Positions 11,588 to 50,093 of a stretch of DNA of 64,000 nt are shown piece by piece. A program made the position numbers and the translations under genes. Position 1 is the first letter of the stretch; every line of letters starts with the position of its first letter. The stretch is from Streptomyces fragilis (lineage in GTDB: Bacteria > Actinomycetota > Actinomycetes > Streptomycetales > Streptomycetaceae). The DNA lies in assembly GCF_003112515.1 (NCBI RefSeq), contig NZ_BEVZ01000002.1:1736001-1800000 (forward strand), given 5' to 3'. The notes under the pieces are model-generated. The model had not been told where the DNA came from. It made no database searches and saw nothing but the letters and a program-made list of their open reading frames with translations.

Positions 11588-11775
11588 ACTTTCCCCGGCC
11601 GGTCGGTGGGCATGCCGCCTCGGAGGACCCCCGCACGGGGGACGGACCGGAAGGTGTGGCCGGGGTGTGCGCGGCCGCCGATCTTCCCCGGCGGCCCCGT
11701 GAGCGGGCAGGATCACCCCGGGCCACCGTACGTCCCACCGGGGCGCGGTACCGGGCCCCGCAGAAAGGAGAGCCG

Positions 11776-30698: not shown

Positions 30699-30824
30699 GC
30701 CGCACCCCGTCCGCACAGGACCGTCCCACGCCTGCCCCTGCCGTCCCCGCGGCGGGGGCAGGCCCCTTTGACCGCGGCGGCGCGCCCCGGCACGCCGCGC
30801 GCCGCCCCAGGAAGGACCCCCGCC

Positions 30825-32330: not shown

Positions 32331-32394
32331 CCGTCCGGAACGCCTTTCGGCGGACATTCGACATTTTCGACGACACACGGTGAAGGAGCCGACG

Positions 32395-33714
32395 ATGAAC
32401 CGAGCCCCGGCCGGCGCGGCGTCCGGGGTGAGGCCCGCGGCGATCGCAGCACTCGGCGCACTGATGGCCGCGACGTTCTGCGTCTCGACCACCGAGAACC
32501 TCCCGGCCGGACTGCTCCCGGAGATCTCCGCCGGACTGGACGTCTCCCTGTCCGCGGCGGGCCAGCTGGTCACCGGGTACGCGGTGGTCGTGACGGTGCT
32601 GAGCGTTCCGCTGACGTACGCCACCCGCCGGGTCCCGCGCCGTCCCCTCCTCCTGGGCCTGATGGCGCTGTTCGTGGTCGCCTCCGTGGCGTCCGCCGCC
32701 GCGCCCACCTTCGGCCTGCTGCTCGCCTCGCGTGCCGTGACGGCACTGGTCCACGCCGTCTTCTGGGCGGTCGTCACGGTCACCGCGACCTCCCTCTTCC
32801 CGGTCTCGGTGCGGGGCCGGGTCGTCGCCATGGTCTTCGGCGCGACCTCGCTGGCGACCGTCCTCGGCGTGCCCGCCGGAAGCTGGATCGGGCAGCAGGC
32901 CGGCTGGCGGGCGGCGTTCTGGGTGCTCGCCGGGATCGGCCTGCTCGCGTTCGTCACCGTCGTCCTGTGCCTGCCGTCCACCGGGGCCGCGCGGGAGGAC
33001 GGCGACGGGCGGCGTGCGCCGGACGCGGCGCGCTACGTCGTCCTGGTGGTGACGATCGTGCTGGTCATGACCGGGCTCGGCGCGGCGTTCACGTACACGG
33101 TGCCGTTCCTCCTCGAGGTCAGCGGCTTCTCCACCGAGGCGATCAGCCCACTGCTGCTGGTGCGGGGCGCGGCCGGCGTCGCGGTGCTCTTCCTGGCCGG
33201 CCGCCTCGCGGACCGCTACCCGCGGCCGGCCACCGTCGTGCCGGTGGCGCTGCTGGCCCTCTCGCTGCTCGGCACCTACGCGTGGGGTTCCTCGCCGGTG
33301 GTCGCCGCGGTGCTGACGGCGATGTGCGGCGTCGCCCTGTTCGCCATGATCACCACGCTGACCAGCGAACTCCTCACGGTCGCACCCGGCGACCTGTTCA
33401 TCGCCTCGGCCGTCGGCAACGCGGCGTTCAACGCGGGCACGGCCGCCGGGGCGGCGGCCGGCGGCATGGTGCTGTCCGCCTCCGGCGTTCGCGCCGTGAT
33501 GCTGATCGGCGGTCTGCTGACGGCGGCGGGGCTAGCCGTACTGCTGGCCGACCAGCTGGTGGGCCGTGCCCGGGCGTCGCGCCCGACGGTCACCGGGCCC
33601 TCGGCCGGGCGTCGCGCGGAAGCGGGGGCCGGGCCGTCGGCGGGGCGGGGCGCGGAAGCGGGGGCCGGGCCGTCGGTGGAGCGGAATGCGGAAAGGGTCG
33701 CCGAGCGGTCGTAG
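32395..33714 (+). CDS. MFS drug-efflux-type transporter with repetitive C-terminal tail
   Basis: This 439-residue protein has 12 predicted membrane helices of the DHA1 type. Landmarks are TTENLPAGLLPEISAGLDVSLSAAGQLVTGYA and the loop YATRRVPRRPLLLG after helix 2. The closest style is the chloramphenicol/arabinose efflux (Cmx/AraJ) group. The last 45 residues are a charged, Gly/Ala-rich tail with a 12-residue repeat (AEAGAGPS twice), encoded by a 36-bp DNA repeat at 33615-33676. The start is ATG at 32395 with AAGGAG at 32383-32388. It lies 64 bp after the GH51 gene, so read-through is possible. The substrate is unknown; the araJ-like position beside an arabinose operon is noted but not decisive. 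Confidence 0.82.
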   Translation: MNRAPAGAASGVRPAAIAALGALMAATFCVSTTENLPAGLLPEISAGLDVSLSAAGQLVTGYAVVVTVLSVPLTYATRRVPRRPLLLGLMALFVVASVASAAAPTFGLLLASRAVTALVHAVFWAVVTVTATSLFPVSVRGRVVAMVFGATSLATVLGVPAGSWIGQQAGWRAAFWVLAGIGLLAFVTVVLCLPSTGAAREDGDGRRAPDAARYVVLVVTIVLVMTGLGAAFTYTVPFLLEVSGFSTEAISPLLLVRGAAGVAVLFLAGRLADRYPRPATVVPVALLALSLLGTYAWGSSPVVAAVLTAMCGVALFAMITTLTSELLTVAPGDLFIASAVGNAAFNAGTAAGAAAGGMVLSASGVRAVMLIGGLLTAAGLAVLLADQLVGRARASRPTVTGPSAGRRAEAGAGPSAGRGAEAGAGPSVERNAERVAERS

Positions 33715-33766
33715 ACGGGGGCGCGGAACGGTCACCGGGCGGTCGTGGGCCGGGACGCGGGAGCGG

Positions 33767-34642
33767 TCACCGCTCCGACCGGGTGAGCTCGTAGACGGCC
33801 GCCGAGTCCGGGTCACCGACGTAGACGTACAGGACGGGACGGTCCTCGCTCCCGCCCACCTCCCACTCACGGGTGACGCACCCGGGAACGCGGACGGTGA
33901 CCCGCTGCGCCCAGGCGTCGTCACCCGGGTCGAACGTCCAGGCACCCCGCCCGTCACAGGGGTCCGCGCGGGTCCCGTCGTCCTCGAACTGGGACAGCCC
34001 GGTGGCCGTCGCGGTGCCGTCCGCGTGGAGGACCAGGACCTCCGGATCACCGTTCGCCCAGGAGCCGGCGAGCGCCCTCGCCGTCATGGACGGCGGCTGG
34101 TAGGCGTCCACGACACCGGTCGCCAGCGCCAGCGCGCCGAGCACGCCGGCGCCCACCACCGTGCCGGCGCCCCAGAGCGCCACCCGGCCGACCGGCCGCC
34201 AGCTCCGCCCCGTCCCGCGGAGACGGGCCAGCAGCGCCGGGGGCAGCGAGAAGGCCACGACCGCCGCCCACAGTGCCGGCATCGCCGCCGTCGGCGTGAG
34301 GTCCGTCCGCCGCACGAACAGGAACGACGCGGGCAGGGCGACCAGCACCGCGGCCGGCAACACCCACCACCAGGCCCTCGGACGGCGGAACAGCCGCGCC
34401 AGACCGTCGCCCAGCCAGACCACCGGCATGACCACGACGTGCGAGAACAGGAGCCCGAACAGCACGCCCGCGACGGCGAGCAGCGGCAGGAAGACCAGCG
34501 TCAAGGTGCCCGGGACCACGCCCGGGGACTCCGTCGTGGCGAGCGCCACCAGGCCGGCCACCAGGCCCAGCATCACTTCGCACCCCAGCACCAGCATGGA
34601 CATCACCAGCATCCACGCGTAGTTCCGGCCTCGATGGGCCAT
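33767..34642 (-). CDS. Membrane protein of unknown function
   Basis: This 291-residue protein has about five membrane helices in its first 180 residues. A soluble C-terminal domain of about 100 residues follows, with ALAGSWANGDPEVLVLHADGTATATG, DPCDGRGAWTFDP and VYVGDPDSAAVYEL. The C-terminal part resembles extracellular lipocalin-like or META-type beta domains that read as a small barrel, including two Cys (DPCDG, VPGCVT) that could form a disulfide. The ATG at 34642 has GGGAGGGG upstream. I do not recognise a named family. It converges on the MFS gene. Confidence 0.7.
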   Translation of the reverse strand: MAHRGRNYAWMLVMSMLVLGCEVMLGLVAGLVALATTESPGVVPGTLTLVFLPLLAVAGVLFGLLFSHVVVMPVVWLGDGLARLFRRPRAWWWVLPAAVLVALPASFLFVRRTDLTPTAAMPALWAAVVAFSLPPALLARLRGTGRSWRPVGRVALWGAGTVVGAGVLGALALATGVVDAYQPPSMTARALAGSWANGDPEVLVLHADGTATATGLSQFEDDGTRADPCDGRGAWTFDPGDDAWAQRVTVRVPGCVTREWEVGGSEDRPVLYVYVGDPDSAAVYELTRSER

Positions 34643-34807
34643 GACCCCTCCCCGTCTCACGGCATGCCGAAGGACGCGGTCCGCGCGGGTGCGGCCGCCT
34701 GGATCATCCTGCCATGGTTTTGAACGTGTTCAACTCGCCGGAGGGGGGAACGACGAAGCCGCCCGCGTGAGGTGCACGCGGGCGGCAGGAATCAGCTGCG
34801 GGAGGGC

Positions 34808-35149
34808 TCAGGCGATCGCGTCCGCGCCCGGCCCCGCCTGCTGCACCACCTCGAACGACCACAGGGTGGAACCGCTCGCCGCCGGCTTCGGCCGCTCGCC
34901 GCCCTCGCCCTGACCGCCGCCCTGGTGGGCGGACTTCATCGGCCCCTCCATCCATGCCTCGAACGCGGCCTCGTCACGCCAGCGCGTGTACACGAGGTAG
35001 GTGTCGGTCCCCTCGACCGGGCGGAGCAGTTCGAACCACTCGAAGCCGTCGGAGTTCTCCACGGCGTGCGCCCGTGAGGCGAAGCGCTTCTCCAGGACCT
35101 CCCGCTGCTCGGCGGGCACGGACAGTACGTTGATCTTCACGACGCTCAT
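34808..35149 (-). CDS. Antibiotic biosynthesis monooxygenase-fold protein
   Basis: This 113-residue ABM/dimeric ferredoxin-like protein reads MSVVKINVLSVPAEQREVLEKRFASRAHAVENSDGFEWFELLRPVEG, then YTRWRDEAAFEAWM. Members are heme-degrading monooxygenases (IsdG/MhuD type) or small oxidases. The WFELLRP and FEAWM positions fit the heme-interacting group, but Asn and His ligands cannot be assigned confidently. The ATG at 35149 is preferred over an upstream ATG because the family begins here. It is a single-gene unit. Confidence 0.8.
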   Translation of the reverse strand: MSVVKINVLSVPAEQREVLEKRFASRAHAVENSDGFEWFELLRPVEGTDTYLVYTRWRDEAAFEAWMEGPMKSAHQGGGQGEGGERPKPAASGSTLWSFEVVQQAGPGADAIA

Positions 35150-35273
35150 GCCCTCATCCTGCCGCACCGCCCCGGAGTGCTGCCGGAGGCCTCGCGCGGC
35201 AGGTGTTTCTCGGGCATGGTGACCACAGGGCGACCGTCCCGGCGAGCGGTCCGGGCGCCTGTGGGGAGGGCGC

Positions 35274-35585
35274 GTGGCGGAGCCGTTGAGCGGCTGGATA
35301 TGGGCCCAGAACGCCCTGCCCTTCCTGCAGTTGCTGTCCCACTACGCCGGTTACGCCTTCGACGGCACCGACTGGGAGACCGTCGAGGCGGGCATCGAGG
35401 ACACCGACGACGACCGTGCGGACGGCTGGTACACCTACCCGCTGGTCGGCGCCCGGGCCGAGTTGGAGGTCGCGCTGGCCGTCGCCGCCGGCTCCGACGT
35501 CCTGGCGGTCACCGTCACCGGCCTGGAGGATCCCGAACTCCGGCTGCGCGCCGACACGTTGATCTCCGCCTTCGCGAGCATGTGA
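35274..35585 (+). CDS. Conserved-looking small hypothetical protein
   Basis: This 103-residue cytoplasmic protein begins MAEPLSGWIWAQNALPFLQLLSHYAGYAFDGTDW and has a beta-rich second half (LEVALAVAAGSDVLAVTVTGLEDPELRLRADTLI). The GTG at 35274 has GGGGAGGG 7 nt upstream. It ends 27 bp before the inositol-phosphatase-like gene and is probably in the same unit. I do not recognise the family. Confidence 0.7.
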   Translation: MAEPLSGWIWAQNALPFLQLLSHYAGYAFDGTDWETVEAGIEDTDDDRADGWYTYPLVGARAELEVALAVAAGSDVLAVTVTGLEDPELRLRADTLISAFASM

Positions 35586-35612
35586 GCGCGGCGAGCCGCC
35601 TATGCTCCCCGC

Positions 35613-36431
35613 ATGACGACGAGGAACGGGCCGGACGACGCCGAGGTGGCGGTCGCCGCCGCGCGGGCCGGGGCCGCCGTGGTACGGGACCTGTACGGCA
35701 GCGCTCCCGAGCGGCACGACAAGGGGAACGGCGACTTCGCCACAGCGGCGGACCTGGCGGCCGAGGAGGCGATCCGGGACGTCCTGCGCGCGTTTCGCCC
35801 CGGCGACGCCGTGACCGGTGAGGAGCGGGGAGCCACCGGAGCGGCGGAGGCCGGACGCAGGTGGCTCGTCGACCCCCTCTGCGGCACCCTCAACTACGCC
35901 GTGGACACCATGCTCGTCGGCGTCAACGTCGCCCTGCGGGACGGCGGGCGGGTCACGGCGGCCGCCACGGCCGACCCGTTCAGCGGCGAGGTGTACCTGG
36001 CCGACGGCGTCGGCGCCCGCCTGCTGGACCCCGACGGCACGGGGACGGGTCTGATTCCCTCGGCCGCGTCCGGCCTGGTCGACCTCAACCTCGATCCGCC
36101 GTTCCCGAACGCCCCCGCCTTCCGGGCCGCCCGGCTGCTCGACGACCCGGCGTTCACCGCGCGCTTCCGGCCCCGCGTGGTCTCCACGACGCTCGCCGTC
36201 GCCTGGGTCGCGGCAGGCCGACGAGCCGCCTACGTCACCGACGGGGACCTGCGCGACAGCGTCCACTTCGCCTCCGGCATCGCCCTGTGCCAGGCCGCCG
36301 GATGCGTCGTCACGGGGCTCGACGGCCGGCCCCCGTACACCGGCGCCAACGGCCTGATCGCCGCGGCCGACCAGGACACGCACGCGGCGCTGCTCGCCAT
36401 GGCCCGGATCCGGCTCCCCGCCGAGCGGTGA
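35613..36431 (+). CDS. Inositol monophosphatase-family protein with an altered metal site
   Basis: This 272-residue protein has the IMPase fold: NGDFATAADLAAEEAIRD, then GEE (Glu70-Glu71), then WLVDPLCGTLNY. The family metal motif is DPxDGTxNF; here Asp87 remains but the second Asp is Cys90. The later WDxAAG motif is also absent, replaced by SVHFASGIAL. Two of the metal-binding features are therefore missing, and the protein may be a weak phosphatase or a non-catalytic homologue. The ATG at 35613 follows the small upstream gene closely. The substrate is unknown. Confidence 0.8.
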   Translation: MTTRNGPDDAEVAVAAARAGAAVVRDLYGSAPERHDKGNGDFATAADLAAEEAIRDVLRAFRPGDAVTGEERGATGAAEAGRRWLVDPLCGTLNYAVDTMLVGVNVALRDGGRVTAAATADPFSGEVYLADGVGARLLDPDGTGTGLIPSAASGLVDLNLDPPFPNAPAFRAARLLDDPAFTARFRPRVVSTTLAVAWVAAGRRAAYVTDGDLRDSVHFASGIALCQAAGCVVTGLDGRPPYTGANGLIAAADQDTHAALLAMARIRLPAER

Positions 36432-36524
36432 GTGCGGCGGCGCCGATCGGCCGGACGGAGGACGTGGACGGGGCCCCGCGCGGAGGCGGTGCCAGACTCG
36501 GTCTCCGGACGCTGGAGGTGCGCG

Positions 36525-37601
36525 GTGGATCTCGACGCTGTCGCTCAGGAGCTGTACGGGACGCTCCCCGAGACGATCACCCGGATGCGCGACGAGCGCG
36601 CCGCCCGCGCCCGCGCGGAGGGCGACCGGGAGCTGGCGAAGCGGATCAAGGCCCTGCGGAAGCCGACGCTGTCGGCCTGGGCCTGCAACCTGCTGGTCCG
36701 GGAGCGCAAGGAGGAGACCGAACCGCTGCTGCGGCTGGGGGAGGCGTTGCGGCAGGCCCACCTCGACCTGGACGGCGGGGTGCTGCGGGACCTCTCACGG
36801 CAGCAGCACCTGCTGGTGTCCGCGCTCGCCCGGCAGGCGGTGGAGCTGACCGCGGCGGCGGGACACCGGGTGGGGGAGGGGGCCCGGGAGGAGGTCGAGG
36901 GCACGCTGCGCGCGGTGCTGGCGGACCCCGGGGCGGCCGCGGCCTGGGCCGAGGGGCGGCTGACCGGACCGCTCACCGCGACCCCGGGCTTCGGGGCCGT
37001 GCCGGCCGGCGGGACGCCGCCCGACCTGCGGCTGGTACCCGCGCCGAAGAGGGACGCGGCGGGTGCGGAACCCCAGGCGGGCCCGGCTGCCGGGGAAGGC
37101 GGCGCAACGACCGCGCGCCGGGGCGAGGGCGGTGCGCCGGACGCGGGCGGCGCGACACAGGGGGTCGGTGCCGCGGAGCGCGAATGCCGTGCCCGGGAGC
37201 GCGAGGCGGCCGAGCGTGAGGCGGCCGAGCGTGAGGCGGCCGAACGTGAGGCGGCCCGGCGCCAGGCCGCGGAACGGGCGCGGCGGCGTGAGCTGGCGGA
37301 GGCCCGCGCGGAGGCGGAGGAGGCCGCGCGGGCCCTCGGCGAGGCGGAGGAGGAGACGGCCGGCGCCGACCGCGCCGAACGTGAGGCGGTCGACCGCGTC
37401 GCCGCCCTCGAGGAGCGGGTCCGTGGCCTGGAGGAGGAACTGCACGCCGCCCGTGCCGAGACCCGCGAGGCCCGGGCGGCGGAACGCGCGGCCCGCGACC
37501 GGGCCCGTGCCGCCGCCCGTACCCTCCGCGACGCCCGCCACCGCGCCACCACCGCCGAGACCCGCGCCGCCCGCGCCACCCGCCCGGCCGACGACGCGTG
37601 A
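36525..37601 (+). CDS. Coiled-coil hypothetical protein
   Basis: This 358-residue protein starts VDLDAVAQELYGTLPETITRMRDERA and has an ordered helical first half. Landmarks are KRIKALRKPTLSAWACNLLVRERKEE and LSRQQHLLVSALARQAV. After a linker, about residues 205-355 are almost all Glu/Arg/Ala, including EAAER repeats, and would form a long coiled coil. The GTG at 36525 has GGAGGTG upstream. The KPTLSAWA...N motif looks conserved and may define a family, but I cannot name it. No membrane segment. Confidence 0.72.
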   Translation: MDLDAVAQELYGTLPETITRMRDERAARARAEGDRELAKRIKALRKPTLSAWACNLLVRERKEETEPLLRLGEALRQAHLDLDGGVLRDLSRQQHLLVSALARQAVELTAAAGHRVGEGAREEVEGTLRAVLADPGAAAAWAEGRLTGPLTATPGFGAVPAGGTPPDLRLVPAPKRDAAGAEPQAGPAAGEGGATTARRGEGGAPDAGGATQGVGAAERECRAREREAAEREAAEREAAEREAARRQAAERARRRELAEARAEAEEAARALGEAEEETAGADRAEREAVDRVAALEERVRGLEEELHAARAETREARAAERAARDRARAAARTLRDARHRATTAETRAARATRPADDA

Positions 37602-37701
37602 CGGCGGGCCGGGCGCCGCCGAGGACGCCGCGCCCCCTCGGACGACGGCGAGGGCGGCGACCCCCACGGGCTCGCACCGCGCGCCGTCGTCCGCACCGCG
37701 C

Positions 37702-40320
37702 TCAGGCCGCCCCGAAGGCCGTGAAGGTCCACCCCGTCGCCCGGTGGACCGCGTCGTCCGGGAGGGCCGCGCGGGCGTCGCGCAGCGCCTCGGCGAGGGA
37801 GAGGCCGCAGGCCAGGCCCTTGTGCAGGGCCAGCATCAGCGGCACCACCGCCGCGTCGTTGACCGGCGCGCTGCTCGCCACCACCCCCGCCGTGCCGAGC
37901 GGCAGTAAGGCGGTGACCAGGCCCAGCAGTTCGTCGGAGCCCACCGGCGCCAGCCGCGCCGTGTCGCAGCTGGACAGGATGAGCCGGTACGGACTGCTCT
38001 CCAGCCGCTCGAAGTCGTGCACGGTCAACGGCCCGTCGGCCATGCGCAGGGACGAGAACAACGGGTTGTCCGCCCGGAAGACGCCGTGCGCCGCGATGTG
38101 CGCCAGCGACGCGCCGTCCAGCGCCCGCAGCACCTCCCCGGCGCGTGCGCCGTCCCCCTCCAGCAGGGTCGGCCGCCCGTAGTGGTCGACCAGTTCCGGC
38201 ACCTCCGCGCCACCCGTCGCCAGCCCGGGACCGCGCACCAGGACGTGCCGGCCGCCCGCCGGCGGGGCCGTCTCCCGGGCGCGCAGCCAGGCGCCCGCCG
38301 ACGGCGACACGCTCACCACCCGCTCCCGCAGCGACGGCAGCAGCGCCCACGGCACCCGGTGCAGCCGCCCCGGCGGCACCACCACCGGCCCGGGACCGAG
38401 CCGCGCGGCCGCCTCACCGAGCAGCGCCTCCTCCAGGCGGCGCCCGGCCGCCTCCAGCAGGGGAAGCCGCGCCGCGCCGCCGGGATGCGCCAGCCGCCGC
38501 AGCCCGGCCTGCACCAGCTCCGCCTCCGCCTCCGCCCGCGACAGCCGGCCGCCGGTGAACAACCGCACCCGGCCGCCGCCGCACAGCAGCACCCGCACCC
38601 GGTCGTCCAGCACCACCAGTTCGACCAGCTGCGCGCCGTCGCGGTCCAGCCGCTCGAGCAGGGCCGCCGGGTCGAACCGGCGGCCGTCGCCGCCGGCCCC
38701 CGTGCCCCGGGCCCGCAGCGTCCGGGACCGTATCTCCCGCTCCAGGCGCCGCTGCTCACGCTCCAGCACCGGCACCGGACGGCCGTCCCGGCGCGCCTCC
38801 TCGGCCCGGGACGCGATCTCGCGGAACGACGCCAGGTCCGCCAGCAGCCCGGGATCGGCGGGCGGCCGGGCGGCCGGCGCCGCCAGCGCCGCCGCTCGCC
38901 ACCGCTCGCTCCACTCCAGCAGCCGCCGGGCGCCGCCCGAGGCCAGGGCGGCCTCCTGCGCCAGCGCCGCCAGCTCCTCGCCCTGCTCGGTGACCCGGGC
39001 CCGCAGCTCCGGCGCGCCCAGCGTGGTGCGGTGCGCGTCGAGCACGTCCAGCCCGTACCGGCAGGCCCGGAGCACACCGCGACGCGACCCGGCGGCACGG
39101 GCCCGCAGCGCCTGCGCCACCCAGCCCGTCACCCGCGCCTGCGGCGCACCGCCGTGCCGGGCCCTGGCGGCCAGAGCCAGATGCGCCTCCGCCTCCTCGG
39201 GCCGGTCGAGGGCCAGGGCGATCCGCCCGGCCAGCAGCGCGGCCTGCGGCGCCGACGGCGAGCCGAAGGAGGCCAGCCGCCCGGCGAGGGCCGCCGCCTC
39301 GGAGACCATCCGGCCGGTGCGCCGCCCCACCGCGAAACGGGCCTCGGCCAGCACCAGCCGGGCATGCGCCTCCCCCCACGGCCGCCGCTGCCGGGCGAAC
39401 AGCCGCACCGCCGCGGCCGCCCGGTCCACCGCCGTGTCCGGGGCGCCCGCCGCACCAGCCGCCTGGGCCGCCACCAGCAGCAGCTCCGCCTTGCGGGTGC
39501 GCTGCCCGCCGATCCTCTCCAGCGCCGCGATCGCCGCGTCCGCCTCGGCCAGCGCCTCAACCGCCAGGCCCGCCGCCCGCAGCACCTCGCAGCGCCGGAT
39601 GCTCAGCATGAACGTCGGGGTGCCCAGGGCGTCGTAACGCTCGGCGGCCTCGTCGAAGAGCCGCAGCGCCGCGGGGATGTCACCGGCGCGGAAGGCCGTC
39701 AGCGCCCGCGACTCGACCACGTCCGCCTTGTCGTGCTCCTGGCCGGTCGTCCCCCACAGCACCTCCGCCGCCGCGAAGTCCGCCTCCGCGCGGTCCACCG
39801 CCCCCAGCGCCAGGTGGACCGTCGCCCGCAGGGTCAGCGAACGCGCCACCCAGATCACGTCCCCGGCCTGCCGCAGCACCGGCACCGCGCGCCGGACGTC
39901 GTCCAGCGCCTCACCGTGGCGGCCGAGCACCCAGAACGAGTACGCCCTGCGGTACAGCACCCGCGCCCGGGTGTGCGCCGAGCCCCGGCCCACGCCCCGC
40001 TCGAACGCCGCCAGCCCCTGCCGGGTCCGGCCCGCGTGCACCAGCGCCACCCCGAGCGTGGCCAGCACGTCGGCCTCCCGGTCGGCGGAGCCCGCACGGG
40101 CCGCCAGGTCCCGGGCGCGCCGCAGATGGCGCAGCGCCACCTCGAGATCGCCGAAGTCCCGCTGCCAGATGCCGATCACCTGGTGGGCCACCGACGCGTG
40201 CTCCGGCGGGGGGCCGGACTCGAGGAGCCGTTCCGCCCTGCGCAGCGCCACGTCGGGCCTGGCGAAGACCATCGGCAGCAGTTCGAGGACGGTTCCGTTT
40301 CCCGCTGTCACCTGCCGCAT
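37702..40320 (-). CDS. TPR-CHAT protein (caspase-like protease)
   Basis: This 872-residue protein has an N-terminal helical repeat region (about 20-520, TPR-like units such as ALRHLRRARDLAARAGSADREADVLATLG). The C-terminal CHAT domain is at about 600-872. The caspase-type dyad is visible as His745 (LAHIAAHGVF) and Cys785 (LILSSCDTA), followed by GLVTALLPLGTAGVVAS. CHAT domains are clan CD peptidases used in bacterial signalling, suicide and CRISPR-associated cleavage; TPR repeats usually sense a partner. No signal peptide, so cytoplasmic. The ATG at 40320 has AGGG 9-12 nt upstream; a GTG at 40350 has no ribosome binding site. It is divergent, 110 bp away, from a subtilisin-like protease operon and is likely its functional partner. 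Confidence 0.9.
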   Translation of the reverse strand: MRQVTAGNGTVLELLPMVFARPDVALRRAERLLESGPPPEHASVAHQVIGIWQRDFGDLEVALRHLRRARDLAARAGSADREADVLATLGVALVHAGRTRQGLAAFERGVGRGSAHTRARVLYRRAYSFWVLGRHGEALDDVRRAVPVLRQAGDVIWVARSLTLRATVHLALGAVDRAEADFAAAEVLWGTTGQEHDKADVVESRALTAFRAGDIPAALRLFDEAAERYDALGTPTFMLSIRRCEVLRAAGLAVEALAEADAAIAALERIGGQRTRKAELLLVAAQAAGAAGAPDTAVDRAAAAVRLFARQRRPWGEAHARLVLAEARFAVGRRTGRMVSEAAALAGRLASFGSPSAPQAALLAGRIALALDRPEEAEAHLALAARARHGGAPQARVTGWVAQALRARAAGSRRGVLRACRYGLDVLDAHRTTLGAPELRARVTEQGEELAALAQEAALASGGARRLLEWSERWRAAALAAPAARPPADPGLLADLASFREIASRAEEARRDGRPVPVLEREQRRLEREIRSRTLRARGTGAGGDGRRFDPAALLERLDRDGAQLVELVVLDDRVRVLLCGGGRVRLFTGGRLSRAEAEAELVQAGLRRLAHPGGAARLPLLEAAGRRLEEALLGEAAARLGPGPVVVPPGRLHRVPWALLPSLRERVVSVSPSAGAWLRARETAPPAGGRHVLVRGPGLATGGAEVPELVDHYGRPTLLEGDGARAGEVLRALDGASLAHIAAHGVFRADNPLFSSLRMADGPLTVHDFERLESSPYRLILSSCDTARLAPVGSDELLGLVTALLPLGTAGVVASSAPVNDAAVVPLMLALHKGLACGLSLAEALRDARAALPDDAVHRATGWTFTAFGAA

Positions 40321-40430
40321 GGTAGTTGCCCTGGCCAGGGGTTTCAGCACGCACGATGTGAAGGCGGTGTATCAACCGCGATGCGGCAGACTCCTTCTGA
40401 CGACGTAGTACCCGAGGGGGAGGAAGCCCT

Positions 40431-41879
40431 ATGCCGGCCCGGCGGTTCCACGAGCAGTGCGAGCAGGTCCGACGTTCCATGCCCGACGTACCGCTGGCCG
40501 TGGACGAGGAGGCGGGGTTCCTCTACGAGCGCGGCCACCTGCTGGTGCGCGACGGGGAGGACGCCCGGCTGGTCGCCGACGCCCTGCGCGAGCGGCGCGC
40601 GGACATCCCCGGCGCCGCGGGCCGCGAACGGATAGGCGCCGCCGGGCCCGGCAACCGGTCCGGGGTGACGCGGATCAGGGTCGCCGAGCCGGCCGACGCG
40701 GCCCGGGCGGCCCGCGCGGGCGAGGCCGCCGACCCGGCGGTGGACGGCGCGCTGCGCGCGGTGCGCGCCCTGGAGGCCCGCGCCGGACGCCGCATGGTCT
40801 CCCGCAACCACGTCATCACGGTCGCCGTGAACGCCTGCCCCGGTGACGAGCCGGTGCCGGCCGCGCCGGGCGAGGGACCCAACCCGGCGCCCGCCCCTCG
40901 GGACCACGAGCCGGAGTCCGGCGTCGGCGTGCTGGTGGTGGACACCGGCCTCACCTCCGACCACGCCCGCTGCCCCGAACTCGCCCGCGTGCGCGGCGAC
41001 CTGGAGACCTCCGAGCGCGACGCCGACGGGGTGCTGCGCCAGTACGCGGGACACGGCACCTTCATCGCCGGCCTGCTGGCCGCCGTCGCCCCGCACGCCG
41101 ACATCACGGTCTCCAACGCGCTCAACGACGCCGGCGCCGTCCTGGAGTCCGAGTTCGGCCCGCTCCTGCTGGACGCCGCCGAGCGCGCCGGCTGGCCCGC
41201 CCTGATCAGCGTCTCCGCGGGCACCGCCACGGGCGACGACGAGGGCCTGCTGGGACTCGAGCGCTTCATGGCCGAACTGCTCGAGCACCCCGGCACCCTG
41301 CTGGTCGCCGCGGCCGGCAACAACGGCTCCGACACCCCGTTCTTCCCGGCCGCCTACGCCGCCCGGCCCCGCTACCGCAAGGCCGTGTTCTCCGTGGGCG
41401 CCCTGCGCGGCGACGGTGAGGCCAACGCCTGCTTCAGCAACCACGGCCGGTGGGTGAACGCCTACGCGCCCGGCGAGCGCCTCACCGCCCCGCTGACCGG
41501 CTTCGACGCCCCCGTCCCGTACGTCTACCAGCACTCCAGCTACGACGAGTGCCGGCACGGCGGCGACTACTCCTGCACCTGCCGCTTCCCGGTCCGCACC
41601 GGAGTGCTCAGCGCGGACGGCGAGGACGCCCCCGGCGAGCCGGAGCGCGTGGAGTTCACCGGCTACGCGCGCTGGAGCGGCACCTCCTTCGCCACACCGG
41701 TGGCAGCCGCCATGGTCGCCGCGCACATGGCCGCCCACAAGGAGAGCGACCCGCGCCGCGCCCGCCGCGACCTCCTCGCCTCCCTCGAGGACACCGCCGA
41801 GGTGCACGGCGCGCGGGTGGCCGCGCTGCGTCCGCCGACCTGGCGGCCCCTCGGCGCGCCCGCCGGGAGCGAACGTTGA
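40431..41879 (+). CDS. Cytoplasmic subtilisin-like (S8) protease with N-terminal domain
   Basis: This 482-residue protease has the intact triad Asp171 (VVDTGL), His208 (GHGTFIAG) and Ser419 (SGTSFATP), with oxyanion Asn297 (AAGNNGS). There is no signal peptide or membrane anchor, so it differs from mycosins and secreted subtilisins. The first 150 residues form a separate domain (GFLYERGHLLVRDGEDARLVADALRE ... NHVITVAVNACPGDEP), probably an inhibitory or targeting domain. Between Asn297 and Ser419 is an insertion with three Cys (DECRHGGDYSCTC). The ATG at 40431 follows GGGGGAGG. It heads an operon with an ECF sigma factor and a beta-rich protein and faces the CHAT gene. The protease call is firm; the role is inference. 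Confidence 0.9.
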   Translation: MPARRFHEQCEQVRRSMPDVPLAVDEEAGFLYERGHLLVRDGEDARLVADALRERRADIPGAAGRERIGAAGPGNRSGVTRIRVAEPADAARAARAGEAADPAVDGALRAVRALEARAGRRMVSRNHVITVAVNACPGDEPVPAAPGEGPNPAPAPRDHEPESGVGVLVVDTGLTSDHARCPELARVRGDLETSERDADGVLRQYAGHGTFIAGLLAAVAPHADITVSNALNDAGAVLESEFGPLLLDAAERAGWPALISVSAGTATGDDEGLLGLERFMAELLEHPGTLLVAAAGNNGSDTPFFPAAYAARPRYRKAVFSVGALRGDGEANACFSNHGRWVNAYAPGERLTAPLTGFDAPVPYVYQHSSYDECRHGGDYSCTCRFPVRTGVLSADGEDAPGEPERVEFTGYARWSGTSFATPVAAAMVAAHMAAHKESDPRRARRDLLASLEDTAEVHGARVAALRPPTWRPLGAPAGSER

Positions 41880-41941
41880 CCCCGTCCTTGACCCTCACCC
41901 GTACGGCGTACGATGGCGTGCCGTACACGAGGGGTGGGGGA

Positions 41942-42517
41942 GTGGAACGAGCGACAGTCGGCGCCTTGCTGAAGTCCGCGGTCGAGGGTGACCAGGACGC
42001 CTGGCGGGGCCTGGTGGACGGGCTCAGCCCGTTGGTGTGGTCCGTGGTCCGCGGGCACCGGCTCTCCGAGGCGGACGCCCACGAGGTCTACCAGATCGCC
42101 TGGTTCCGCTTCGCGCAGAACCTCGGCCGGATCCGCGAGCCGGAGAAGGCGGGCTCCTGGCTCGCCGCCACCGCCCGCCACGAATGCCTGAAGGTGCTCC
42201 GGGCGCAGCGCCGGTGGACGCCCACCGACGACCCGCAGGTGCTGGACCGCCCGTGCGACAGCTGCTCGCCCGAGCAGAAGGTCCTGGAGTCCGAGGAGGA
42301 GGCCGAACGCGCCGACCGGCACCGGACGGTCTGGGAGGAGTTCGACGCGCTCGGCGACCGCTGCCGGCAGCTGCTGCGCCTGATCATCGCCCAGCCGCCG
42401 CCCAGCTACCGCGAGGTGTCCGTCGCCCTGGGCATCGCGGTGGGTTCCATCGGACCTATTCGACAGCGGTGCCTGCGCCGGCTGCGCAAGCGCCTGACCG
42501 ACCGGGGGGTTCTGTGA
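41942..42517 (+). CDS. ECF-type RNA polymerase sigma factor in the CHAT/S8 locus
   Basis: This 191-residue sigma factor has region 2 (about 12-80, with EGDQDAWRGLVDGLSPLVWSVV and LSEADAHEVYQIAWFRFAQN) and region 4 (about 130-185, with RCRQLLRLIIAQPPPSYREVSVALGIAVGSIGPIRQRCLRRLRKRL). The helix-turn-helix GIAVGSIGPIRQRC contains GSIG-R-R, as in ECF factors recognising bespoke promoters. The GTG at 41942 lies 62 bp after the protease. The next gene overlaps it by 4 bp. No zinc-binding anti-sigma factor is present, so control may run through the neighbouring protein or by proteolysis. Confidence 0.88.
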   Translation: MERATVGALLKSAVEGDQDAWRGLVDGLSPLVWSVVRGHRLSEADAHEVYQIAWFRFAQNLGRIREPEKAGSWLAATARHECLKVLRAQRRWTPTDDPQVLDRPCDSCSPEQKVLESEEEAERADRHRTVWEEFDALGDRCRQLLRLIIAQPPPSYREVSVALGIAVGSIGPIRQRCLRRLRKRLTDRGVL

Positions 42518-43008
42518 ACGGCCCGCACGCCTTCGACGACACCGACGAGACCGGCGAGCTCCACGACGAGCGGCAGCTCCTGGAGATGGAGGCACTCCTG
42601 CGGGAGGCGGCCGAGGTCTGCGACCCGGTGCCCGCCGCGCTGCGCGAGACGGCCCTGGCCGCCTTCGCGCTGCACGACCTGGACGCCCGCCTCGCCGAGC
42701 TCACCTTCGACTCGCTGCTGGACGCCGCCCCCGTCAGGGGCGCCGAGGACACCCCGCGGATGCTCACCTTCGCGGCCGGCGACCTCACCGTCGACGTCGA
42801 GGTGGGCGAGGACGGGCTGCTCGGCCAGCTGCTGCCGCCCCAGGCGGCGGGCGTGGAGGTGCTGACCCGGCCCGCCCCGGACGCGGCGGCGCGGTGCGCC
42901 GCCGACGAGACGGGCGGGTTCTCGTGCGCGGTCGACGTCACCGGCCCGTTCGCCCTGCGGGTCCGGACCGGCGACGAAGTGGTCGTCACGGAGTGGCTGC
43001 GGGTCTGA
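42514..43008 (+). CDS. Acidic protein coupled to the ECF sigma factor, beta-sandwich-like C-terminus
   Basis: This 164-residue protein starts at GTG 42514 inside the sigma factor stop (GTGA), so it is translationally coupled. Residues 1-70 are acidic and helical (LLEMEALLREAAEVCDPVPAALRETALAAFALHDLDARLAELTFDSLLD). Residues 80-164 are beta-rich (LTVDVEVGEDGLLGQLLPPQAAGVEVLTR ... GPFALRVRTGDEVVVTEWLRV). There is no membrane helix or zinc motif. Position and composition suggest a partner or antagonist of the sigma factor. I infer a regulatory role only from context. Confidence 0.75.
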   Translation: MNGPHAFDDTDETGELHDERQLLEMEALLREAAEVCDPVPAALRETALAAFALHDLDARLAELTFDSLLDAAPVRGAEDTPRMLTFAAGDLTVDVEVGEDGLLGQLLPPQAAGVEVLTRPAPDAAARCAADETGGFSCAVDVTGPFALRVRTGDEVVVTEWLRV

Positions 43009-43081
43009 CCGCGACCGGGCGGCCGCCCACCCAGGGCGGCCGCCCGCCTGGGGCGGCCGCCCGCTTGGCGCGGCCGCCCGC

Positions 43082-44329
43082 TCACCAGGCGACCGGAAGC
43101 GCCTCGGGCCCGCGGATCATGGTGCGCCGCCGCCACGGCACCTCCTGCGCGGGCACCGCGAGCCGGAGCCCGGGCAGCCGCTCCAGCAGGGTGGTCACCA
43201 GCAGCTCCGTCTGCAGGCGGGCCAGGACCGCCCCCGTGCAGAAGTGCGGTCCGTTGCCGAAGGCCAGGTGCGGGTTGGGGTCCCGGGCCAGGTCGATCTC
43301 GTCCGGATCGGGGAAGACCTCCGGGTCCCGGTTGGCGGCCAGGTAGGACACGTACACCGGCTCGCCCGCCCGGATCGTCCGGCCCGCGAGCCCGACGTCC
43401 TCCAGCGCGATCCGGGCCAGGCCCACGGTGCTGCGGTGCGGGATCCAGCGCAGCAGCTCCTCCAGGGCGGCGTCCCGCCCGGCCGGACGGTCCAGCACCT
43501 CGCGCATCTTGGCCATCAGGTCCGGCCGGGTGAGCAGCAGGAAGAGCATCTGCCCGCAGTTGTGCGTGACCGCCTCGCCGCCGATCTGCAGCGGCCCGGC
43601 CACCCCGATCGCCTCCTCCTCGGTCAGCTCCCCGCGGCCCACGGCGGCGCCCAGCATCGACAGCACGCCGCCGCCCCGTCCGTCGCCGTCAGCGTCGGGG
43701 GAGCCCTCGCGACGGTCACGGATCGTCCGCGTGATCCAGCCGTACAGTCCCGCCTTGGCCCGCTCGGCGGCCTCGGCGCCGCCCGAGGTGGAGATGATCT
43801 GCCGGGTCCAGGCGCGCACCCGGTCCCGGTCGGCCTCCGGAACGCCCATCACCTCGCCCACCACGGCCAGCGGGTACGGCTCCAGCACCGTGGCGATCAG
43901 ATCGGCCGGCGGACCCTGCGCCAGCAGGCCGTCGACCAGCGGGTCGAGCAGCGCCTGCGCGCGCGGGCGGAGCCTGCGCATCGCCCCGACGGTGAAGGCG
44001 CCGGCGAAGGCGCGGCGCAGCCGGTTGTGGTCGGGCTGGTCGGCGAAGGCCAGCGAGCCCGGACGGGGCTTGAAGTGCGGGGCCAGCCGGGTGACCTGGC
44101 GGCGCGTCACCTCCGCACGGCCGAACCGCGGGTCGTTGGTGACGGCGCGGACGTCCTCGTGACGGGTGGCGAGCCAGGCCCAGCCCTCGCCGTGCGGCAG
44201 CCGGATCCTGGTCAGCGGGGCCTCACGCATCAGCTCGGCCAGCAACGGGTCGAAGCCGGGGCCGTCGATCTCCGGCGGCACCCAGTCCCGGACGGGCGGA
44301 GGAGGCGGTGCGGTCATCTCCTGAGTCAT
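43082..44329 (-). CDS. Cytochrome P450, CYP158A-like
   Basis: This 415-residue soluble P450 has heme-ligand Cys364 in HLAFGNGPHFCTG, the ExxR pair in EELLRW, and the I-helix GGEAVTHN. The sequence closely resembles biflaviolin synthase CYP158A2 of S. coelicolor as I recall it. Shared stretches include PPVRDW near the start, GEGWAWL, VTRLAPHF, LLQIGGEAVT-like text, LLRWIPHR and VYVSYLAANRDPEVFPDPD. CYP158A enzymes couple flaviolin molecules. The type III polyketide synthase RppA that supplies flaviolin is not in this window, a situation like that of the stand-alone paralogue CYP158A1. The start is ATG at 44329; an internal ATG four residues in is possible. Confidence 0.9.
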   Translation of the reverse strand: MTQEMTAPPPPPVRDWVPPEIDGPGFDPLLAELMREAPLTRIRLPHGEGWAWLATRHEDVRAVTNDPRFGRAEVTRRQVTRLAPHFKPRPGSLAFADQPDHNRLRRAFAGAFTVGAMRRLRPRAQALLDPLVDGLLAQGPPADLIATVLEPYPLAVVGEVMGVPEADRDRVRAWTRQIISTSGGAEAAERAKAGLYGWITRTIRDRREGSPDADGDGRGGGVLSMLGAAVGRGELTEEEAIGVAGPLQIGGEAVTHNCGQMLFLLLTRPDLMAKMREVLDRPAGRDAALEELLRWIPHRSTVGLARIALEDVGLAGRTIRAGEPVYVSYLAANRDPEVFPDPDEIDLARDPNPHLAFGNGPHFCTGAVLARLQTELLVTTLLERLPGLRLAVPAQEVPWRRRTMIRGPEALPVAW

Positions 44330-44503
44330 GGAACCACCCTGGGACGGCCCCGGCCGTCTGTCGCGCCCGGCTGCTCCGTGCGGTGCCGGAAGCGGCCGTC
44401 GAGCGCCGGAAACGGGCGGCGGTCTCCCAAAACGGGCGCCGCCCCGCCCGGAAATCCGGGCGGGGCGGCGCTCAGGGCCGGACGGCCGTGCGACCGGGTG
44501 AGG

Positions 44504-46726
<2,223 letters not shown>

Positions 46727-46860
46727 CGGGTGCTCCGCTCCACGTCTGCAACATTGCTCGACATCAAGATATCTCGTGATCGAGGCGACGCGACCCCCGG
46801 CCCGCCCTTCGGCCCCCGGACACGCCCGGACGCACGGCGACGGACGCGCGCCGCCCGCGG

Positions 46861-47919
46861 TCAGACGCGCTGGTGCGGCATGGACGCCGCGTCCTGGCTC
46901 CGCAGGGTGACGTCGTGGTGGGGCGGGGGCACGGCGATGCCCTCCGCCCGGAAACGGCGGTGCAGGCGCTTGATGAACTCGTGCTTGATCCGGTACTGGT
47001 CGCTGAACTCGCCGACGCCCAGGATCACCGTGAAGTTGATCCGCGAGTCCGCGAAGGTGTGGAAGCGGATCGCGGGCTCGTGCTCCGGCACCGCGCCCTC
47101 GACCTCCTTCATCACCTCGGTGACGACCTCCGCGGTCACCCGCTCCACGTGCTCGAGGTCGCTGTCGTAGCCGACCCCGGCCTGGACCATGATCGTCATG
47201 TCCTCGCCGGGACGGCTGAAGTTGGTCATGTTGGTGCCGGCGAGCTTCCCGTTCGGGATGATCACCAGGTTCTGCGACAGGTTGCGGATCGTGGTCTGCC
47301 GCCAGTTGATGTCGACGACGTACCCCTCCTCGCCGCTGGTCAGCCGGATGTAGTCGCCGGTGCGCACGGTCCGCGAGGCGAGGATGTGGATTCCGGCGAA
47401 CAGGTTGGCCAGGGTGTCCTGCAGCGCGAGCGCCACCGCCAGACCACCCACCCCCAGCGCGGTCAGCAGCGGGGCGATGGAGATGCCCAGCGACTGGAGG
47501 ATCACCAGGAAGCCCAGCGCCACCACCGAGACCCGGGTGATGTTCACGAAGATCGACGCGGACGAGGCCACCCCGGACCGCGACTGGGTGATCGCCCCGA
47601 CCATGCCGCCGACCCCGCGGGCCACCGTCAGCGTCACCACGGTGATCATCACCACGGTCAGGGCCTGGTTGACCGTCCGGCCCACCGCGTGCGTCAGCGG
47701 CAGCAGGGCCGCGGCCGCCGCGAGGCCGCCGAGGACCGCCGCCCACGGCACCATCGTGCGCAGCGCGCCGACGATCACGTCGTCGCCCTCCCAGCGGGTG
47801 CGTTCCGCGTGCCGGCCCAGCCAGCGCATCAGCATCCGCGCCAGCAGCGCCAGCACCAGGCCGGCGCCCACCGCGACGCCCGCGCGGATCAGGTCCTGCA
47901 GCTCCAGCGCCCGGTTCAC
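46861..47919 (-). CDS. MscS-family mechanosensitive channel
   Basis: This 352-residue protein has three to four membrane helices followed by the MscS core. The pore helix region is [26 protein letters not shown], and the beta domain begins with [25 protein letters not shown]. The C-terminal part is soluble ([21 protein letters not shown]). Such channels open on membrane tension and release solutes during osmotic downshift. The GTG at 47919 is chosen from the hydrophobic start. It is unrelated to its neighbours. Confidence 0.92.
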
Positions 47920-48153
47920 CGGACGCCTCCGGGGTTCGCCGCCGGACGGAGGGGGAGTCTCGTCACGTTGTCACCTGTTCGGTTCTCCGGGAAGGGTTCG
48001 GCCCGCCGCCCGGTCGACCGCGCGCCCCGGGCGGGGCGCCCTCATCCTGCCGCACCCGGCCGACGACCCGTCATCCGGCCTGCTCGGAAGGGCTCTTGGG
48101 ACGCGTTCCCGGCGCCCGCGCGCCCGCCGCGGGATCCGTCCGGGACAAAGGCG

Positions 48154-48184
48154 TTGACCTCGACCAAGCTGGAGGTTCTACCGT
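48154..48184 (+). promoter_or_regulatory. MerR/SoxR-type promoter-operator with 19-bp spacer
   Basis: TTGACC (48154-48159) and TACCGT (48179-48184) are separated by 19 bp, the long spacer typical of MerR-family activation. Between them lies the imperfect 18-bp palindrome CCTCGACCAAGCTGGAGG (48158-48175). This matches the SoxR box layout CCTCAAG-N4-CTTGAGG in size and outer bases. The predicted start point coincides with the ATG of the ABC exporter, implying a leaderless mRNA. No soxR gene is in the window. Confidence 0.7.
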
Positions 48185-48191
48185 TCCGGGC

Positions 48192-50093
48192 ATGAGTATG
48201 GAGACCACCGCCTGGACGCAGCTCCACAGCGTGATGAACGCCGACGAGCAGGCGCGCCACCGACCCCTCGCCCGCGCCACGCTGCGCCGCGTGGCCGCCT
48301 TCGCCCGCCCCCACCGCCGCCGGATCGCGCTCTTCCTGCTGCTCGGCGTGGCCACCGCGCTGCTCGCGGTCGCCGCCCCCGTCCTCGCCGGAGACGTCGT
48401 CGACACCATCGTCTCCGGCGGCGACGAGAGCCGGGTCGTGCGCCTCGCCCTGCTGATCGCGCTGATCGCCGTGGTGGAGGCCGGCCTCGGCGTCCTCGCC
48501 CGCCGCCTGTCCGCCACCCTCGGCGAGGGCCTGATCCTCGACCTGCGCACGGCCGTCTTCGACCACGTGCAGCGGATGCCCGTCGCCTTCTTCACCCGCA
48601 CCCGCACCGGGGCGCTGGTCAGCCGCCTCAACAACGACGTCATCGGAGCCCAGCGGGCCTTCAGCAACACCCTGTCCGGCGTGGTGAGCAACCTGGTCAC
48701 CCTGGTGCTCACCCTCGCCGTGATGCTCACCCTCTCCTGGCAGATCACGCTGCTCGCACTGGTGCTGCTGCCGGTCTTCGTGATCCCGGCCCGGCGCATG
48801 GGCTCGATGATGGCCCGCCTGCAGCGGGAGGCCGCCCAGCACAACGCGGCCATGGGGACGCGGATGACCGAGCGCTTCTCCGCCCCCGGCGCCACCCTGG
48901 TCAAGCTCTTCGGCCGACCCGAGGAGGAGTCCGCCGAGTTCGCCGAGCGCGCCCGCCGGGTCCGCGACATCGGCATCCGCACGGCCACCGCGCAGTCCGT
49001 CTTCATGACCGCCCTCACCCTGGTCTCCGCGCTCGCGCTGGCCCTGGTGTACGGGCTGGGCGGCTGGTTCGCGCTGCGCGGCAGCCTGGAGCCGGGCGCG
49101 GTGGTCGCCCTCGCCCTGCTGCTGACCCGCCTCTACGCCCCGCTCACCTCGCTGGCCGGGGCCCGGGTCGAGGTGATGACCGCGCTGGTCAGCTTCGAGC
49201 GGGTCTTCGAGGTGCTCGACCTCGAGCCGCTGGTCCGGGAGCGACCGGACGCCCGCGAGGTGCCGGACGGCCCGCTGTCCGTCGAGTTCGAGGACGTGCG
49301 GTTCGCCTACCCGTCGGCCGACAAGGTCTCGCTGGCCTCCCTGGAGGAGGTCGCCGCCCTCGACACCCGCGGCGGCCAGGAGGTCCTGCACGGCGTCTCC
49401 TTCCGCGCCGAGCCCGGGCAGACCGTCGCCCTGGTCGGCTCCTCCGGCGCCGGCAAGTCCACCGTCGCGCAGCTGCTGCCGCGCCTGTACGACGTCGACT
49501 CCGGCGCGGTGCGGGTGGGCGGCGTCGACGTCCGCGACCTCGGCGCCGCCTCACTGCGCGGCGCGGTCGGCATGGTCACCCAGGACGGCCACCTCTTCCA
49601 CGACACGGTGCGCGCCAACCTGCTGCTCGCCCGGCCCGACGCCGGCGAGGACGAACTGTGGGACGTGCTGCGCCGCGCCCGCCTGGAGGACCTGGTCCGC
49701 TCCCTCCCCGACGGGCTGGACACCGTGGTGGGGGAGCGGGGGTACCGGCTCTCCGGCGGCGAGCGCCAGCGGATGACCATCGCCCGGCTGCTGCTGGCCC
49801 GCCAGCGGGTGGTCCTCCTCGACGAGGCCACCGCGCACCTCGACAACACCTCCGAGGCGGCCGTCCAGGAGGCGCTCGCCGAGGCGCTCGAGGGGCGCAC
49901 CGCCCTGGTGATCGCCCACCGGCTCTCCACCGTCCGCGACGCCGACCTGATCCTGGTCGTGGAGGACGGCCGCGTCGTCGAGCGGGGCACCCACGACGAA
50001 CTCCTCGCCCGCGGCGGCCGGTACGCGGAACTCCACCGGGCCCGCGGGGAGTCGGTGGAGCCGGTCGAGCCGGTCGCCGAGGCGGCCGTCTGA
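48192..50093 (+). CDS. ABC exporter, fused membrane and ATPase domains (MsbA/MDR type)
   Basis: This 633-residue half-transporter has a six-helix membrane domain (about 30-330, with FFTRTRTGALVSRLNNDV) and an ATPase. The ATPase has Walker A at 416-423 (GSSGAGKS), signature LSGGERQR and Walker B VVLLDEATAHLD. It should dimerise to export lipids, drugs or redox-active compounds. The ATG at 48192 sits at the predicted transcript start of a SoxR-like promoter, so a leaderless message is likely; longer upstream readings have no support. In S. coelicolor an ABC exporter is among known SoxR targets, which fits. Confidence 0.93.
   Translation: MSMETTAWTQLHSVMNADEQARHRPLARATLRRVAAFARPHRRRIALFLLLGVATALLAVAAPVLAGDVVDTIVSGGDESRVVRLALLIALIAVVEAGLGVLARRLSATLGEGLILDLRTAVFDHVQRMPVAFFTRTRTGALVSRLNNDVIGAQRAFSNTLSGVVSNLVTLVLTLAVMLTLSWQITLLALVLLPVFVIPARRMGSMMARLQREAAQHNAAMGTRMTERFSAPGATLVKLFGRPEEESAEFAERARRVRDIGIRTATAQSVFMTALTLVSALALALVYGLGGWFALRGSLEPGAVVALALLLTRLYAPLTSLAGARVEVMTALVSFERVFEVLDLEPLVRERPDAREVPDGPLSVEFEDVRFAYPSADKVSLASLEEVAALDTRGGQEVLHGVSFRAEPGQTVALVGSSGAGKSTVAQLLPRLYDVDSGAVRVGGVDVRDLGAASLRGAVGMVTQDGHLFHDTVRANLLLARPDAGEDELWDVLRRARLEDLVRSLPDGLDTVVGERGYRLSGGERQRMTIARLLLARQRVVLLDEATAHLDNTSEAAVQEALAEALEGRTALVIAHRLSTVRDADLILVVEDGRVVERGTHDELLARGGRYAELHRARGESVEPVEPVAEAAV

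Follow-up and report, generated by a model that had tools for sequence, protein, structure and literature searches.

A candidate proteolytic signalling module of a TPR-CHAT protease, a subtilase and a sigma factor with its coupled protein in Streptomyces

Why would a caspase-fold protease and a serine protease of another class share a divergent promoter region directly beside a sigma factor gene? The question is raised by a stretch of 64,000 nucleotides from Streptomyces fragilis (contig NZ_BEVZ01000002.1, positions 1,736,001 to 1,800,000), hereafter called the window, in which four neighbouring genes encode a protease with TPR and CHAT domains (CHAT), a subtilase of family S8 (S8), a sigma factor of the extracytoplasmic function (ECF) type (SIG) and a small protein coupled to it (CP). 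We give an even chance to the reading that these genes constitute a cytoplasmic proteolytic signalling module, in which CHAT would activate its partner protease and proteolysis of CP would set SIG free. The genes are arranged as follows; their coordinates and active sites, the divergent gap of 110 bp and the GTGA overlap are all as the original prediction, made from the letters of this DNA, had given them.

37702..40320, minus strand: TPR-CHAT protease, 872 aa from ATG (PF12770 E 6.5e-25, TPR_12 E 5.3e-14), with His745/Cys785
40431..41879, plus strand: subtilase (S8), 482 aa (PF00082 E 4.1e-15), with Asp171/His208/Ser419
41942..42517, plus strand: ECF-type sigma factor SIG, 191 aa, GTG start (TIGR02937 E 6.3e-19, Sigma70_r2 E 6.8e-11)
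42514..43008, plus strand: sigma-coupled protein CP, 164 aa, its start overlapping the SIG stop in GTGA

CHAT, of the clan CD peptidases, scores 88.6 bits against PF12770 (Pfam cut-off 24), with TPR_12 likewise above its cut-off, and represents the sole PF12770 match in its genome. S8 reaches 56.3 bits against PF00082 (Pfam cut-off 21.8) and SIG 68.2 bits against TIGR02937 (cut-off 42.9), with Sigma70_r2 above and Sigma70_r4 below its own cut-off. Both proteases had been proposed to lack signal peptides, and this agrees with their N termini, which contain no strongly hydrophobic stretch (top 19-residue means within the first 60 residues of 0.88 in CHAT and 0.24 in S8, by a crude measure and no signal-peptide predictor). 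Likewise, none of the four proteins displays an evident membrane segment, the top 19-residue means ranging from 1.01 to 1.88.

How constant is this arrangement? With the S8 protein as query, a scan of the species genomes in GTDB yielded 196 relatives, the best 80 of which form the near set (79 Streptomyces and one 'Actinobacteria bacterium' by title). CHAT, S8, SIG and CP are found in one order and orientation in 78 of these 80 near loci, and the remaining two (L102 and L104) are cut off by a contig end immediately upstream of S8. The SIG/CP overlap of −3 is kept in 79 of the 80, the exception being L104, which was left out wherever its CP frame differed. The cytochrome P450 gene that flanks the module in the window is matched in only 27 near loci, and the conserved unit therefore ends at CP. 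Moreover, the active sites are strictly constrained: the S8 triad is intact in 80/80 near sequences (window counted) and 10/10 distant aligned ones, and the CHAT His/Cys dyad in 69/69 near sequences (window counted) and 12/12 distant aligned ones. Near alignments A1, A2 and A4 comprise 27 of 79 loci, picked at <82% S8 identity, and A3 comprises 23 loci. SIG is 66–96% identical across 27 relatives, and at ≥67% identity it occurs in 11 of 121 sampled family genomes, all of its own genus.

At greater distance, the set persists despite a shuffled gene order. In a phylum sample of 396 genomes from 236 genera, a CP profile matched 26 genomes, and 20 of the 21 CP sites outside the own genus were taken as distant loci. 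All four genes lie within the stretch in nine of these 20, and also in L117, a locus found via the sigma factor. SIG and CP are kept adjacent throughout the reshuffling, with SIG adjoining CP in 17 of the 20, which upholds the proposed role of CP as sigma partner in part. Alignments A5–A7 stem mostly from CP-centred loci and are consequently biased towards linked copies.

Co-occurrence extends beyond linkage. Profile cut-offs for the phylum sample were E ≤1e-5 for CP, ≤1e-40 for CHAT and ≤9.2e-38 for the S8 family, the last being set after inspection of the results (82 genomes at 1e-30). CP is present in 49 genomes, CHAT in 48 and the S8 family in 46; 44 genomes hold both CP and CHAT, 44 both S8 and CHAT, and 40 all three. 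The corresponding Fisher p values, which are not corrected for phylogeny, amount to 6e-48 for CP–CHAT, 3e-51 for CHAT–S8 and 5e-42 for CP–S8. Counted by genus, CP occurs in 30, CHAT in 28 and both in 27 of the 236. Among the 12 genomes of the own genus listed, seven contain both CP and CHAT and five contain neither. Members of family f18 are of a more divergent type; with f18 excluded, CP is found in 32 of 32 CHAT genomes and CHAT in 32 of 36 CP genomes. The original prediction would have been refuted by a neighbourhood not conserved in other actinomycetes, or by S8 and CHAT occurring independently of each other and of the sigma factor; these data do not refute it.

Further, in nine of the 44 genomes that hold both, CP and CHAT lie on separate contigs or at a distance of >6 kb. 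In two of these nine (G269 and G456) the matches are near contig ends and may be true neighbours. The divergent CHAT–S8 pair is kept in five of the remaining seven (G205, G236, G278, G303 and G429), with distances between CP and CHAT on one contig of 1.17 Mb in G236 and 25 kb in G303. SIG–CP and CHAT–protease are two sub-modules travelling together. Because of the linkage in near loci, the linkage in shuffled order in distant genomes, the co-occurrence of unlinked copies and the strict constraint on the active sites, the sequences support the view that the four genes function as a unit.

Two distant lineages display arrangements of their own. One genome (G161; loci L153, L154, L229, L230 and L187) has three genes each of CP, CHAT and family S8, not all on the same contig, and two of its three CP genes have no related sigma gene alongside. 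In family f39 (L156, L157, L159 and L161), SIG–CP is located beside genes whose N-terminal sequences suggest a cytochrome bc complex, and CHAT is not adjacent.

What is the partner of CHAT? The original prediction of exactly this set of families proved too narrow, as a NAL1-like serine protease can replace the subtilase and f18 may use an exported one. The replacement is seen in two loci:

L160 (genome G297), 11331-12905, minus strand: NAL1-like serine protease instead of a subtilase, transcribed divergently from CHAT
L172 (genome G349), 8053-9615, plus strand: NAL1-like serine protease instead of a subtilase, transcribed divergently from CHAT

Both proteins show the motifs NWHVLAG and GGDSGS, and the L160 protein matches PF25608 with E 0.0015 and 18.7 bits, under the cut-off of 27. 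In L172, CHAT seemed to have a long extension at its N terminus, which proved to be spurious, read from the DNA opposite the NAL1-like gene. Near their N terminus, the partner subtilases of f18 (L175, L176 and L189) and that of L174 contain a hydrophobic segment that points to possible export; the cytoplasmic picture is therefore not valid for every relative.

The segment that joins the two parts of the partner protease deserves closer attention. In the window, S8 comprises an N-domain of about residues 1–130 and a single junction, NACPGDEPVP (134–143), of which residues 134 and 136–143 are identical in 28/28 aligned sequences and residue 135 in 27/28. By contrast, 15 of 30 non-Streptomyces partner proteases of CHAT contain an array of tandem repeats (13/28 S8 and 2/2 NAL1-like), at a repeat score threshold of >8 chosen by us; L207 was screened with a cruder pattern only, with no match, and the S8 of L230 was excluded. 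As controls, 20 stretches with CHAT-unlinked S8 were taken, two of which gave no open reading frame (ORF) by motif, and 0/18 scored proteins have tandem repeats (Fisher p 4e-4 for 13/28 linked against 0/18 unlinked S8, phylogeny ignored). Within the sample, these scans of predicted proteins show the repeat-bearing segment to be peculiar to CHAT-linked proteases. Subtilases with tandem repeats before the catalytic domain include:

L165, 12043-13512: CHAT-linked subtilase, NPAYQG x8
L168, 3916-5385: CHAT-linked subtilase, NPAYQA x7
L169, 12372-13829: CHAT-linked subtilase, NPGYQG x6
L171, 8456-10021: CHAT-linked subtilase, TPYPGG x11
L177, 8357-9970: CHAT-linked subtilase, GYGDGV x7

Further arrays are found in L178 (NPFTRS x3), L179 (NPYGTRT-type x4), L188 (HPFWVG-type x4) and L206 (NPAYQS x4), and in two loci with two S8 copies, each copy having a separate unit (PFTSGG and HPMYDG in L180, PFTSGG and HPLYDG in L181). 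The units are hexa- or heptapeptides, equivalent to 18 or 21 bp in DNA with 80–98% match, and vary by lineage. Their position is constant: the array separates the N-domain from the catalytic domain, upstream of the catalytic His in 13/13 S8 proteins and upstream of the catalytic Asp in the seven sequences where Asp was located by pattern. The NAL1-like partners, in turn, carry ten-residue PHYQ/PYYQ repeats in a loop that follows the catalytic His. The sole CHAT-unlinked NAL1-like protein found, L229, has no repeat insert, and on this one control we dismissed the idea that NAL1-like proteins are a generally repeat-bearing family. Probing four genomes with the NPAYQG array returned strong matches in the partner S8; a weaker match in G194:C3 (E 3e-6) turned out to be a different repeat of GPTGV type and was discarded.

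How might these parts act together? In the reading we favour, SIG would be kept inactive by the translationally coupled CP via the N-terminal helices of the latter. A signal would act on the TPR part of CHAT, and CHAT, a caspase-fold protease with a dyad intact by sequence, would then process the serine protease in the segment between N-domain and catalytic domain, the very position at which many relatives carry arrays. Once activated, the serine protease would destroy or trim CP, either by itself or together with CHAT, leaving SIG free to drive its regulon. We favour an action of CHAT on the protease because of the constant SIG–CP and CHAT–protease pairs, their co-occurrence when apart, the two intact catalytic sites and the repeat segment. 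The arrays might, moreover, act as a recognition barcode or multi-hit activation site, each TPR-CHAT reading the hexapeptide of its cognate protease whatever the fold of the latter (subtilase or NAL1-like), a speculation that we put forward as rather improbable. Cleavage by CHAT would possibly also free many short peptide copies that bind TPR grooves and thereby amplify the signal.

The putative inhibitor, CP, is acidic (pI 4.1) and is without a match at E ≤1 in Pfam, NCBIfam and PADLOC. Its AlphaFold model contains three N-terminal helices in a segment of about residues 19–67 (block pLDDT, the per-residue model confidence, of 60–78) and an eight-strand immunoglobulin (Ig)-like beta-sandwich of about residues 83–163 (pLDDT mostly 82–96). 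As modelled, the sandwich appears akin to Ig/Fn3-like domains only in general arrangement (best VIA-align Z 7.8, root-mean-square deviation 2.3, 82 aligned; best Foldseek E 6.4e-3). A family assignment for the fold was abandoned, since the many Ig-like matches all have Z <8; the comparison barely extended to the helical part before residue 65. When a profile of the N-terminal segment was run over 2073 ORFs near other sigma relatives, four small ORFs matched after the true CPs, in L116 (E 2e-5), L114 (0.003), L113 (0.05) and L112 (0.06). These ORFs of ~70–107 codons are convergent with sigma genes 41–47% identical to SIG in four of five loci; beside the related sigma gene of the fifth, L115, the profile found no such ORF. 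Despite two marginal E values we credit these matches because of their position beside sigma genes. Segments resembling the N-terminal part of CP may, judged by these matches, exist as small standalone proteins next to related sigma genes, and the helices of CP are its putative sigma-facing part.

The non-coding DNA of the module contains two conserved elements:

40321..40430, between the divergent genes: CHAT/S8 promoter region, 110 bp, containing TGTATCAA; on the CHAT strand TTGATACA, −35-like
41910..41939, plus strand: promoter/ribosome-site block CGTACGATGnCnnGnCGTACACGAGGGGTG before SIG, near-invariant, aligned in 81/81

TGTATCAA occurs in 71 of 79 CHAT/S8 gaps, in 49 of those 71 at 36–38 bp from the CHAT start, and as a single copy in the 64-kb window. 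The gap of L052 contains GTATCAA three times at 17-bp spacing, a triplet that suggests a binding site and not merely a −35 box. Before SIG, the columns of CGTACGATGnCnnGnCGTACACGAGGGGTG are mostly invariant; by sequence, TACGAT within it could be the −10 box, and the block likely includes the ribosome site of SIG. A hairpin in the S8–SIG gap can cover this ribosome site, but with z = −1.11 against shuffles we do not propose an RNA switch. A genome search at ≤3 mismatches finds the block a single time, and we therefore do not claim a SIG regulon by motif. Downstream of CP, between convergent genes (43017-43081 of the window), a 17-bp palindromic repeat of the GGGCGGCCGCCC type is present three times and may be a terminator. 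At 36432-37601, the window encodes a charged Ala/Glu/Arg-rich protein of no Pfam family, with 15-bp tandem repeats (37197-37276) in its gene; a relative is found in one of the 80 near loci (L032).

Several points weigh against activation of the serine protease by CHAT and release of SIG from CP. Sigma–CP pairs without CHAT also exist, as four genomes outside f18 have CP and no CHAT match. Tandem repeats are missing from 15 of the 30 distant partner proteases, from the S8 of the window and from 79/79 Streptomyces partners. CP has no detectable relation to known anti-sigma domains (Pfam and NCBIfam at E ≤1, PDB sequence matches to E 10), and two of the four ORFs similar to its N-terminal segment are marginal (E about 0.05). 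Reading the S8 N-domain as a prodomain is weak because the structural model of S8 is poor (pLDDT 56); a prodomain assignment by structure was dropped at this confidence, and the Foldseek matches of the model, which are subtilisins, were not used for the N-domain. Additionally, the genome search with the sigma promoter block revealed no promoter motif that links SIG to targets.

Could CHAT act on CP directly? Such an order, in which CHAT would cut CP to free SIG and the serine protease would act as an effector of its own or in feedback, has a precedent in Craspase: according to the accessible part of PMC10028731, the TPR-CHAT protein Csx29 cuts Csx30, a protein that inhibits an ECF-like sigma factor by binding it, and this proteolysis relieves the inhibition. 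It fits that four of 55 CHAT matches (second pieces of split CHAT genes in G056 and G150 excluded) have CP and no family S8 within 6 kb, namely those of G297, G480, G411 and a second copy in G359. However, G297 has a NAL1-like protease at this place, the G359 copy adjoins another S8 and G411 is cut by the contig end, which leaves G480 as the only clean case. Within the same 6 kb, S8 is found near CHAT more often than CP (48 against 38 of the 55; both near 34, neither near three), and the repeats sit in the partner proteases (CP was outside the repeat scan). We consider direct cleavage of CP by CHAT unlikely. As for gene content, type III-E CRISPR Craspase (Csx29, Csx30, Csx31 and CASP-sigma) likewise encodes TPR-CHAT with an ECF-like sigma factor and a small partner gene, as far as that source is accessible. 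In contrast to it, CHAT of the module matches the Csx29 family NF041237 with only E 0.36 and 9.6 bits (cut-off 300), CP has 164 aa, and the module adds a second protease of another class. Window positions 30000-50000 contain no CRISPR-like spaced repeat among their direct repeats and no Rfam match (the rest of the genome was not searched for CRISPR), and Pfam identifies no Cas protein among ten scanned proteins, four of the module and six nearby. By analogy, the module appears to resemble Craspase signalling but is not Craspase. A defence role could be proposed by analogy, on which it would have to rest because neither defence genes nor a CRISPR array or mobile element appeared in the scanned parts of the window.

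The direction of signalling could also be the reverse, with stress sensing by SIG–CP upstream and the CHAT/protease pair as its self-killing or growth-arrest effector. CHAT and caspase-like domains are known in predicted conflict systems (accessible parts of PMC10907252 and PMC8195603), and the two pairs co-occur even far apart, as a regulator and its targets may. However, no motif was found that the CHAT/S8 gap shares with the promoter block of SIG, this block is unique in the genome, and the neighbourhood in the window looks ordinary; we regard a SIG-driven effector as quite improbable. Finally, chance neighbours or hitch-hiking of unrelated genes are hardly credible, for although linkage within Streptomyces, from which almost all near loci stem, can be inherited without function, the set withstands reshuffling in distant genomes and its co-occurrence stands when unlinked and at genus level.

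The favoured cascade from CHAT via the serine protease to CP and SIG shares features with further known systems. In CalpL-CalpT-CalpS of type III CRISPR, which joins a Lon-SAVED protease to an anti-sigma/sigma pair, a Lon-type protease with cyclic nucleotide sensing frees a sigma factor from its inhibitor; in contrast, neither a Lon-type protease nor cyclic nucleotide sensing is seen in the module. Zymogen subtilases with an N-terminal propeptide (mycosins, intracellular subtilisins) share the catalytic domain with S8, whose best NCBIfam match is a mycosin of the type VII secretion system (63 bits, under the cut-off of 279) and whose solved relatives include intracellular serine proteases. Unlike these zymogens, the S8 of the window has no visible export signal and is a constant partner of CHAT and a sigma factor, and relatives bear tandem repeats before the catalytic domain. 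Sigma release through a protease cascade is also the principle of regulated proteolysis of the RseA/DegS type (accessible part of PMC8103513), from which the module differs by the lack of an evident membrane segment in its proteins and by its combination of a caspase-fold and a serine protease. In EACC2 neighbourhoods, a caspase-domain protein is similarly encoded near an ECF sigma factor, there with a TPR protein (DUF1822), and autoproteolytic activation has been proposed; the accessible part of the source (PMC8195603) names EACC2 and TRADD-N, not subtilase or CP, and Pfam finds neither of the former in the four window proteins. The accessible parts of PMC7159879, PMC8103513 and PMC10907252 do not describe the four-gene set, and we found no publication with it in the open-access literature, which is no proof of its being unpublished.

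If true, activation of a serine protease by CHAT and release of SIG from CP would make the protease-gated sigma control of Craspase one branch of a wider, CRISPR-free signalling mode of actinobacteria, one in which a caspase-fold protease and a serine protease, two different classes, are coupled. The module would then provide a tractable Streptomyces system for TPR-CHAT sensing and for the evolution of partner specificity in protease cascades. Should the arrays indeed serve as barcodes, it would constitute a cascade of two bacterial proteases that controls a sigma factor through a peptide address code able to evolve, and the repeat arrays make the pairing rules of protease and substrate directly testable.

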